The notes beneath the pieces are model-generated. The model ran no database searches, was not told where the DNA came from, and saw only the letters and a list, made by a program, of their open reading frames with translations. DNA of 35,204 nt, taken from IMG/VR virus record IMGVR_UViG_3300046011_005598, positions 1 to 35,204 of that record, one strand, 5' to 3'. The stretch comes from a virus. Below are positions 1 through 6,234 of the stretch, piece after piece; position 1 is the stretch's first letter; each line of letters starts with the position of its first letter. The position numbers and the translations under genes are program-made.

Positions 1-449
1 GCGTTAAATAACCCGCTGAATCTTCTTCTGCCTACTCTTCTACGTCTTCTCCCGTCAACGTCAAAATCCATGTCGTCTGACTCAGGATTTATTATTTTGA
101 CGGGAATATATCCATTAATTTTGAAAAAATCATCTAAAGCTGATTTGAAAACAATTTGATTTTCTTTGACAGGGGTCACTTGGTCATTGTCAGATTTATT
201 AACTGACTTATTCAACATATCTTTTAGTATTTCATGAATATCATTCAGTTTGATAGCAGAGTCTTGTGAATAATCACTCATTTTTTTCAATTGAGATCTT
301 TGTTCTATTAATCTCAATTTAATTATATTGAAAGTTTCAATGTTATAATTTGGTGAAACAGCTCCATCAGCAACAGGTTTAGCGTCAGGGGGTCCCCCTG
401 ACGCTTTTTTGTCCATCATATTACCTAAAAATGAGTTTTTTTCTACCAT
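1..449 (-). CDS. Partial structural protein, candidate tape measure (5' end only)
   Basis: The frame is open from an ATG at 449 to the left edge of the window, giving 149 codons with no stop. It begins MVEKNSFLGNMM, has a helical stretch around residues 40-80 (KLRLIEQRSQLKKM), and reaches a very basic patch (GRRRRRVGRRRF) near the edge. I recognise no domain. The gene starts 3 nt after the stop of the chaperone extension, with only a weak ribosome site (TAAG). In lambda-like and Mu-like phages the gene just downstream of the frameshifted G/T chaperone pair is the tape measure, and T4 gp29 also belongs to the hub group, so tape measure or hub protein is the best guess from position alone. Codons 13-23 lie in a perfect GC-rich hairpin (381-405). 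That the reading frame is real is likely; the function is inference. Confidence 0.6.
   Translation of the reverse strand, partial: MVEKNSFLGNMMDKKASGGPPDAKPVADGAVSPNYNIETFNIIKLRLIEQRSQLKKMSDYSQDSAIKLNDIHEILKDMLNKSVNKSDNDQVTPVKENQIVFKSALDDFFKINGYIPVKIINPESDDMDFDVDGRRRRRVGRRRFSGLFN
381..410 (+). terminator. Perfect GC-rich hairpin plus T-tract, terminator-like on the plus strand
   Basis: The arms AGCGTCAGGGGG (381-392) and CCCCCTGACGCT (394-405) are exact reverse complements around a single T, and TTTTT follows at 406-410. Read on the plus strand this has the form of an intrinsic terminator. It lies inside the beginning of a minus-strand coding region, so it would stop transcription running against that gene. 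On the minus-strand mRNA the same hairpin sits about 45 nt after the start codon and could slow ribosomes there. The structure is directly visible; its function is inferred. Confidence 0.55.
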
Positions 450-452
450 ATC

Positions 453-635
453 TTATGACGCACCCGATGCTTGTCTTTGTTTTTCTTCCAATTCTTCAAG
501 ATATTTCTTGAGCATGTCAAGGTAAACATCTCTCTCAAACGGAATCATGTTTTCGATGTCTTTCAGGGAATATTTATGGTGTTGCATCAACGTAAAGTTA
601 ATTGTATAGTAATTTTCTAGAGTGTTGTGCGTCAA
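453..635 (-). CDS. Baseplate-hub/tail chaperone C-terminal extension (-1 frame of gp26)
   Basis: This 60-codon frame is rich in charged and aromatic residues (NYYTINFTLMQHHKYSL, IPFERDVYLDMLKKYLEELEE), typical of the small hub-assembly chaperone seen after gp26 in marine T4-like phages. The only start at its left boundary is TTG (633-635), which overlaps the TGA of gp26 and has no Shine-Dalgarno sequence. The frame is open further upstream through TAC-GTT-GGT to a run of seven T on the coding strand (644-650), where a -1 slip from gp26 would enter it. The most likely product is therefore a gp26-extension fusion of about 298 aa rather than a free 60-aa protein. The arrangement matches lambda G/GT. 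Independent initiation at TTG by coupling to gp26 termination remains possible. Confidence 0.75.
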   Translation of the reverse strand: MTHNTLENYYTINFTLMQHHKYSLKDIENMIPFERDVYLDMLKKYLEELEEKQRQASGAS

Positions 636-1348
636 ACCAACGTAAAAAAATCAACTAACGAAGTCATCAGAATTTTACGTTCTGTGCCCTTTGAGTTTTT
701 GTAGTTAATTTCGTAATGCAATCGTGGCATGTTCACTACGAACTTACGCATTTTGTCATATGATACGGGATCAAATTCTTCTTCAAGATATTTCTGCAAT
801 TCTTCTTTAGAAACATCTTTAAGATCGAATTCTTCATCACCTTCATAAATCTTGTCTATGCAATGTGCAATTAGCATATCAAAATATTTGTTGATATCTG
901 TCTGTGTAAAGTTTTCGTCAGTCATCAATGACGCAGAAGCGTATTTCATTATAACGGTAACGTCGTCATTCACTTTGATTTTTTTGTCAACATCTTCTGG
1001 GAATTTAACAATCACATCATCTAGGTTGACTTCGAAATCATATGTTTCGTTATCCTCAGAGTCAATATATGCGACTTTAGAAATGTTGCTGATCGAATAT
1101 GCACGAATTTTTACAAACAGGTATTCGATGTCAAACGTAGTCAAATTATCGACGTTGATTTTATCGTCAAGGATACAATTGTTGACAACCTGTTTAACTG
1201 CCGACAATGCGTCTCTCGGGTCTCCCCCGCTTTTTGCAATCAAAAGAATTTTTTCTTCTTTGACGAGCATAGGTCTGATCTTGATGGTTTTATTATTTGA
1301 TGGTATTGTCACATCAAACAGCGGATGGCTGATTTTAGGTAAAGGCAT
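632..1348 (-). CDS. gp26: Baseplate hub subunit / assembly chaperone, T4 gp26 family
   Basis: This 238-aa acidic protein resembles the T4 baseplate-protein family that includes gp26. It opens with PLPKISHPLFDVTIPS, followed by KIRPMLVKEEKILLIAKSG and an internal CILDD; this 'folded N-terminal domain plus acidic body' pattern is usual for hub chaperones in marine T4-like phages. The start at 1348 has a good ribosome site (GGAGT) about 6 nt upstream and follows the tube-protein gene by 24 nt. The C-terminus is KILMTSLVDFFTLV. The two Phe codons lie in a T7 run, and a -1 slip there joins the next frame. In T4 the related proteins assist assembly of the central hub. Family assignment is fairly confident; whether it remains in the virion is not shown. 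Confidence 0.82.
   Translation of the reverse strand: MPLPKISHPLFDVTIPSNNKTIKIRPMLVKEEKILLIAKSGGDPRDALSAVKQVVNNCILDDKINVDNLTTFDIEYLFVKIRAYSISNISKVAYIDSEDNETYDFEVNLDDVIVKFPEDVDKKIKVNDDVTVIMKYASASLMTDENFTQTDINKYFDMLIAHCIDKIYEGDEEFDLKDVSKEELQKYLEEEFDPVSYDKMRKFVVNMPRLHYEINYKNSKGTERKILMTSLVDFFTLV
644..650 (-). promoter_or_regulatory. Putative -1 ribosomal frameshift site (T TTT TTT)
   Basis: On the coding (minus) strand the gp26 codons read GAT TTT TTT ACG, so seven T form a perfect X XXY YYZ heptamer with both tRNAs able to re-pair one base back. The -1 frame continues TAC GTT GGT TTG ACG into the 60-codon chaperone frame with no stop. gp26 terminates in its own frame only 10 nt after the heptamer. 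The downstream frame lacks a ribosome site and has only a TTG start. These features together fit programmed frameshifting as in lambda G/GT. No downstream stimulatory structure was identified by eye. Confidence 0.7.
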
Positions 1349-1372
1349 AGTTTACTCCAAAGTATATTAAAA

Positions 1373-4999: not shown

Positions 5000-6234
5000 C
5001 ACTACCGTTATATAATCAGGCATTCATCAATAAGTGTATGATAAACAACATTGATGTGACTTCTCATGTCCGTCAATTGTATGTTAGTTCGTCTATAATG
5101 ACCCCATACATATTAGCAAAATTAACTATTGCTGATATGACACAGATACAGGATGCATTGTATGAACCTGGTGTGCCGGTAAGTATAGTTTATAGTGCAG
5201 GTGATAGTACTATATTGCGTGAGTTTTCTTTAGTTACGCTTGGAAATATGGGTGCAACAAAAGCAGAGAATAATCGTGTAGGTAAAACTGAAATATCTGC
5301 AATAAGTAAATGCTATTTCGATTTACAATTAGAGCATAACAGTTTTCATCAAAATTTACCTGCGTCTGAAGTTTTTAGAAAGCTACACAAAGAATTAGTC
5401 CCAGGGACAAACGTTAATGTCACAAAAACCCGAGGTTTGATTGGCGACCGTGAACCATTTCATTTGCGCGGAATTAAATTGGGTAGAGCTATAAACACAG
5501 TTAGAAGTCGTATGACTGATGAGAAATACAAATCAGGTGCATATGTGTATTATGTCGATCAAAATATGAACTATAATTGCAAACCTATTATAGAATTGTT
5601 TGAAACTGCAAGAGGACCTAAATTTCATCAACGAGTTGCGGGACATAGTTTTTTGCGTGAACAAGACGAGTTGGCGTTTAATATTTTCTCAATGAAACAA
5701 GGGACGGCAGGTGATAGCGGCGCTGACAATGCTGCCAATTATCAATCAGCGTTGAGACAACGTGGCGGCGGTGTAAATGAAGGGTGGGACTGGGCTTCTG
5801 CTACATATAAACCCCCTGCATCCAAAGATTATGACACAGCGTCGATTGCCACACCAGGTAAAACGGCATGGAGAGGTGACATATCTAGTTCACCCGGGAC
5901 AGTCAACCACAAATTTAATTACGACTCAAATCAGAAATTGTCTGAAGATTTTGAAGTCGATATTGCAAACAAAAATTTGATTAAATCACTTGTGATGCAA
6001 GGATCTACATTGATCAACGTTCCTCTCGAAGGAGGACTACAATCTTATGTCGGCAAGGGTGTCTATCTTGATATACCCGTAAACGCAGGTGACTCGGACG
6101 GTATGACATCTTTGACTGGCGGTCAACATTTAGTGATCGCCCAAGGTGAGTATATATTCCAAGACAAGAAAGGTTTTAACGGTGTTGCTGCTATTCAAAC
6201 ATCCAGCGGCGGTAAGCAAGGGAGCTTAGTATAA
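4996..6234 (+). CDS. gp27: Baseplate central hub subunit, gp27-like
   Basis: This 412-aa protein has the gp27/VgrG hub layout: an N-terminal tube-like barrel (INNIDVTSHVRQLYVSSSIM, then TPYILAKLTIADMTQIQDAL), a second domain with a Lys/Arg-rich KLHKELVPGTNVNVTKTRG, YVYYVDQNMNYNCKPI, and a C-terminal barrel GKGVYLDIPVNAGD. A Gly/Ser/Ala-rich low-complexity linker occupies about residues 235-300. gp27 forms the trimeric ring that takes the six-fold tube to the three-fold gp5 spike, and the next gene encodes the gp5 OB domain, as expected. It overlaps gp53 by 4 nt. Sequence similarity to T4 gp27 is weak, so the call rests on layout and neighbours. Confidence 0.78.
   Translation: MTLPLYNQAFINKCMINNIDVTSHVRQLYVSSSIMTPYILAKLTIADMTQIQDALYEPGVPVSIVYSAGDSTILREFSLVTLGNMGATKAENNRVGKTEISAISKCYFDLQLEHNSFHQNLPASEVFRKLHKELVPGTNVNVTKTRGLIGDREPFHLRGIKLGRAINTVRSRMTDEKYKSGAYVYYVDQNMNYNCKPIIELFETARGPKFHQRVAGHSFLREQDELAFNIFSMKQGTAGDSGADNAANYQSALRQRGGGVNEGWDWASATYKPPASKDYDTASIATPGKTAWRGDISSSPGTVNHKFNYDSNQKLSEDFEVDIANKNLIKSLVMQGSTLINVPLEGGLQSYVGKGVYLDIPVNAGDSDGMTSLTGGQHLVIAQGEYIFQDKKGFNGVAAIQTSSGGKQGSLV

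Follow-up and report, generated by a model that had tools for sequence, protein, structure and literature searches.

The G/GT pair of phage lambda uses the slippery sequence G_GGA_AAG, unlike the T_TTT_TTT described here. In 2022, Vladimirov, Gautam and Davidson reportedly identified the genes for tail assembly chaperones (TACs) in T4-like phages (Virology 566:9-15). A review of 2016 still lists T4 as an exception from the conserved G-T frameshift (PMC5009743). In a passage citing Vladimirov, polyT frameshift signals are described as known for TAC-N genes of T4-like phages (PMC12846349), and another passage, citing the same work, mentions a two-gene solution in "some T4-like phages", where the short form and the fused long form have a gene each and no frameshifting is involved (PMC10885494).

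In public genomes of phages related to the one described here, gp26 and gp51 are annotated as separate "baseplate hub" proteins, with starts of gp51 that are often arbitrary, or with gp51 missing altogether. For example, the public record of S-CREM1 (L001) lists gp51 from an internal start, by which the conserved N-terminal part is cut off, and in the record of S-CAM7 (L169) gp51 has no annotation.

The locus discussed here is located on the minus strand of IMG/VR virus record IMGVR_UViG_3300046011_005598. The whole stretch of 35,204 nucleotides that was analysed (positions 1 to 35,204 of this record) is referred to as the window. From its sequence we infer, with a probability of roughly 0.93, that the locus is a TAC pair made up of a short form, gp26, and a gp26-gp51 fusion of 298 aa that is produced via a -1 ribosomal slip. 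The phage would be T4-like (Kyanoviridae-type), and gp26 and gp51 would not be two hub proteins but a short and a long form of the same chaperone, linked through frameshifting.

According to this model, most ribosomes would finish gp26 and release a TAC-N protein of 238 aa. A fraction would slip back by one base at the heptamer, with the tRNA-Phe on T_TTT_TTT re-pairing on TTT TTT, and would then read the -1 frame to yield the fusion protein (TAC-NC). Taking lambda G/GT as a guide, TAC-N would form a coat on the tape measure protein, and the minority of copies that carry the C-terminal extension would use it to recruit tail tube subunits.

Anatomy of the gp26-gp51 junction

The features of the locus are as follows.

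1355..1358, minus strand: Shine-Dalgarno sequence of gp26, GGAG (from sequence)
632..1348, minus strand: gp26-like TAC-N, putative short form of 238 aa, zero frame (Pfam PF12322, PHROG 150, AlphaFold model)
644..650, minus strand: slippery heptamer T_TTT_TTT, in codon phase of gp26, conserved among relatives
633..635, minus strand: TTG that overlaps the TGA of gp26; no other start codon of the -1 ORF at the junction
632..634, minus strand: TGA stop of gp26, zero frame (from sequence)
453..644, minus strand: -1 frame extension, gp51-like putative TAC-C (PHROG 634, PHROG 150, pN/pS)
584..630, minus strand: 3' hairpin candidate, weak, with 630-624 pairing to 591-584 (-6.5 kcal/mol; p=0.07 relative to recoded sequences that keep the protein), at the place of a strong stimulator-like stem in relatives
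3..449, minus strand: start of the next ORF, cut by the window edge and whole in the near-identical contig L005

The gp26 gene reads from an ATG at 1348 to the TGA at 634-632, and profile searches match its product to PF12322 (Pfam T4_baseplate, E=3.3e-48) and to PHROG 150 (E=5.2e-55). A preliminary description of this DNA had pointed to a T TTT TTT heptamer within GAT TTT TTT ACG at 644-650. The heptamer is indeed present and in phase with gp26, and GAT TTT TTT ACG occurs a single time on the minus strand of the window. The gp26 stop is close by, as had been stated; however, the distance from the end of the heptamer to the TGA is 9 nt and not 10, the latter figure being obtained by counting to the first base of the stop.

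Starting from the heptamer, the -1 frame is open for 65 codons up to a TAA at 455-453, in agreement with the earlier claim that it is open across the heptamer and beyond. Reading after the slip would proceed as TTT TTT TAC GTT GGT TTG and so on to this TAA. The predicted joined product has 298 aa, the size anticipated in the preliminary description, and its junction peptide would be LVDFFYVGLTHNTLENYY. Read alone, the -1 ORF comprises 60 aa from the TTG at 635. No Shine-Dalgarno sequence was found ahead of this TTG in the window, and the statement that the downstream frame has a TTG start only and lacks a ribosome site thus holds. The suspected resemblance of this 60-codon frame to a small hub-assembly protein is confirmed by a match to PHROG 634 (baseplate hub assembly catalyst, gp51; E=1.1e-26). 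The same ORF also matches positions 239-280 of PHROG 150 (E=4.5e-7), and hence the PHROG 150 model spans both frames.

Among the 11,506 codons of window ORFs with at least 100 aa there are 7 in-phase T_TTT_TTY heptamers. Only the one at 650-644 is situated near a gene end, and only there is the -1 frame long, with 65 codons versus 3-16 at the other sites. In random sequence of the same composition as the window, the chance of 63 open codons is 2%.

The AlphaFold model of gp26 (mean pLDDT 87.6) matches predicted gp26-type viral proteins. For its N-terminal ~95 residues, the best structure matches are 3fgx (Z 8.3), 2ob9 (HK97 tail assembly chaperone; Z 7.8 over 84 residues) and 3klu (YqbN; Z 7.0), followed by entries with Z of 4.9 and 2.7. 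The match of the model to 2ob9 is weak in Foldseek (E 0.94, probability 0.80), and a search of the gp26 profile against the sequences of solved structures gave no match. The modelled fold is in agreement with a chaperone role, short of proof.

The gene that follows the pair encodes 697 aa in contig L005 (L005:3400-5493), including a hydrophobic segment and a GH19 chitinase-like domain; a further ORF begins at position 5496 of the same contig. The position of the 697-aa ORF after the TAC pair fits a tape-measure gene or a virion enzyme gene as candidate identities.

Conservation of the heptamer and selection in the -1 frame

Relatives were collected as IMG/VR contigs, retrieved by gp26 patterns outside the heptamer, and as phage isolates, which resulted in 167 loci with 134 distinct junctions. 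Conservation of the heptamer in gp26 homologues had been named in the preliminary description as a check on the proposed frameshift. In 131 of the 134 distinct relatives, T_TTT_TTY is found in gp26 phase and 0-24 nt ahead of the stop (T_TTT_TTT in 82, T_TTT_TTC in 49), taking the relatives as they come and ignoring kinship. With these numbers, chance is excluded as the origin of the layout. Clustering at 90, 70 and 50% identity yields 117, 79 and 40 clusters, and the heptamer is kept in every cluster at each level, including all 40 below 50% identity. The first six Ts are invariant in the 79 clusters, and the first Phe codon of the slip site is TTT in all clusters. The codon ahead of the T run is GAT, AAT, AGT, TCT, GCT or GGT (D, N, S, A or G) and never ends in C, A or G. 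Given the amino acids and the codon usage of the gene, the probability of this conservation in the 40 most divergent clusters is about 10^-20.9, a calculation assuming independence of the clusters, which applies only in part.

Three relatives deviate: Pectobacterium phage PM2, with the T4 layout and a full-length gp51, and two Vibrio phages, K444 (L158) and 207E48.1 (L161). Absence of the heptamer combined with two good starts, the pattern that had been set against the frameshift beforehand, is thus confined to differing layouts. In both Vibrio phages, the T run at the end of gp26 is shorter, CTT TTT (G/C), and an ATG overlapping the TAA (TAATG) opens the next frame. These two phages may use translational coupling, or the shorter T run, in place of the canonical heptamer.

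Past the junction, the sequence is under purifying selection as protein in the -1 frame only, with a pN/pS of 0.16, compared to 1.39 for the frame of gp26 and 2.23 for the remaining one (231 pairs with at least 75% identity). A continuous protein across both frames, which the preliminary description had suggested to look for, exists in T4: gp51 (249 aa) covers positions 13-280 of the 282 positions of PHROG 150 (E 2.6e-84), and T4 gp26 covers 14-235. Aligned to the predicted fusions, T4 gp51 runs across the junction, and so does gp51 of PM2. Based on this coverage and alignment we regard T4 gp26 and gp51 as paralogues, with gp51 representing the fused form as one ordinary gene. Conservation of the heptamer, selection in the -1 frame and T4 gp51 strongly support the programmed -1 frameshift from gp26 into the next frame, as originally proposed.

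Alternatively, gp51 may be synthesized as a separate small protein by termination-reinitiation at the TTGA overlap, beginning with the TTG at 635, and no fusion would be formed. This appears improbable. The TTG does overlap the TGA in the window, and 81 of 127 relatives have an ATG, GTG or TTG up to 21 nt past the gp26 stop (ATG in 56 of the 81); yet the remaining 46 of the 127 complete cases have no such start, and gp51 starts are preceded by a Shine-Dalgarno-like site in only 4 of 117 cases, compared to 85 of 104 for gp26 starts, which makes a separate gp51 gene unlikely. The TAATG overlap in the Vibrio phages, which occurs without a canonical heptamer, would be in line with reinitiation. 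On the other hand, conservation of the -1 frame sets in at the heptamer, ahead of the candidate starts, both parts are one protein in T4, and the invariant T_TTT run would be left without explanation.

RNA structure around the heptamer

In -1 programmed frameshifts of tail assembly chaperones, a stimulatory structure on the 3' side is common, though not required. RNA structure was assessed by single-sequence folding in 77 clusters, using as null model a recoding that keeps the protein of the -1 frame. The segment between 12 and 75 nt, counted from the heptamer's first base, folds much more stably than this null (mean z of -3.6), with p<0.05 in 58 of the 77 clusters; control regions further downstream and within gp26 have values of -0.02 and 0.06, respectively. 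One subgroup shares a 9-bp stem, GCTGAGYCA with TGGYTCAGC, which starts 8 nt past the heptamer and encloses a 38-nt loop. Across 47 sequences, pairing of this stem is found in 88.4% of cells, versus at most 37% when the arms are slid. Its covariation score of 0.241 (maximum 0.116 when slid) is reached in 0 of 500 shuffles, and it is also above a null that permutes synonymous codons within columns. Cyanophages have different hairpins at the equivalent place, the one in S-PM2 comprising 14 bp. Stems of the 9-bp type or lineage-specific hairpins are seen at L082:2193-2270 and at many other loci; the equivalent stretch in the window is 636-581. RNAalifold did not return a consensus structure for the 47 aligned junctions, probably due to the long loop and mixed registers.

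In the window, the fold of 80 nt is close to that of dinucleotide shuffles (z -0.20), and throughout the lineage formed by the window and its four nearest relatives (L005-L009) the hairpin is weak or absent (p 0.07-0.40). The stimulator therefore seems to be lineage-dependent, and slipping in the window may accordingly be inefficient or depend solely on the heptamer.

A Shine-Dalgarno-like element (GAGG/GGAG) precedes the heptamer by 10-12 nt in 39 of 51 loci, compared to 26.5 expected from codon usage. These 51 loci, mainly of cyanophages (e.g. L003, L114, L139), are those with 0 or 3 nt between the heptamer and the gp26 stop. The element is not enriched in the group of the window (9 of 66, 9.1 expected). 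In cyanophages it could be a stimulator similar to that of dnaX, or merely reflect the coding of Leu-Glu-Gly-Leu.

Based on this dataset, we hypothesize at about even odds that the RNA stimulators of T4-like phages, the T4 subgroup excepted, are specific to individual lineages (the covarying 9-bp stem in one subgroup, the cyanophage hairpins and possibly the upstream Shine-Dalgarno-like element), which would tune the ratio of TAC-N to TAC-NC by different RNA parts. In the literature searched, where the work of Vladimirov et al. (2022) is represented by papers that cite it, no prior description of stimulator elements at the T4-like TAC site was found. The hairpins may represent an addition to published knowledge.

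A fusion could also result from slippage of the RNA polymerase on the T run, in which case the transcript would differ by one base and the ribosome would not be involved. Polymerase slippage is used by some bacterial genes. It has been covered in the 2016 review (PMC5009743). We consider it very unlikely at this locus: the run consists of 7 Ts in the window and of 8 Ts in 8 of 117 clusters, but 47 of the 117 have six Ts followed by C, which is short for such slippage, and always in codon phase. The X_XXY_YYZ phase is kept in every case, and an RNA hairpin downstream is what would be expected for ribosomal slippage. Some sequencing chemistries are prone to errors in short T runs, but an artefact of sequencing or assembly that divides a single gene is refuted: more than 130 distinct sequences, among them the finished genomes of isolates (S-PM2, phiM12, S-CREM1), show the identical split and phase.

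Comparison with known systems

Assuming a -1 ribosomal slip on T_TTT_TTY, this family offers natural variation in the slippery site and in RNA stimulators, which may be used for testing how the ratio of short to long form is controlled. The locus resembles lambda G/GT in that the -1 slip would occur near the end of a short chaperone gene, which in lambda precedes the tape measure gene and here may do so. It differs from it in sequence, which is unrelated, and in gp26 having a second domain beyond the one that is HK97-like.

In Vandenendeviridae and Andersonviridae, too, TAC-N has a slippery T run close to its 3' end and an open -1 frame (PMC12846349). There the slip site is GTTTTT, whereas T_TTT_TTY is found here, with a hairpin in most relatives. 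The locus shares two protein families with T4, in which gp51 is the counterpart of the full fusion and gp26 that of the short form; however, T4 has two paralogous genes on opposite strands in place of the one frameshifted locus in the window. A frameshifted TAC pair is already published in kind (Vladimirov et al., 2022), and the locus in the window is a new member.
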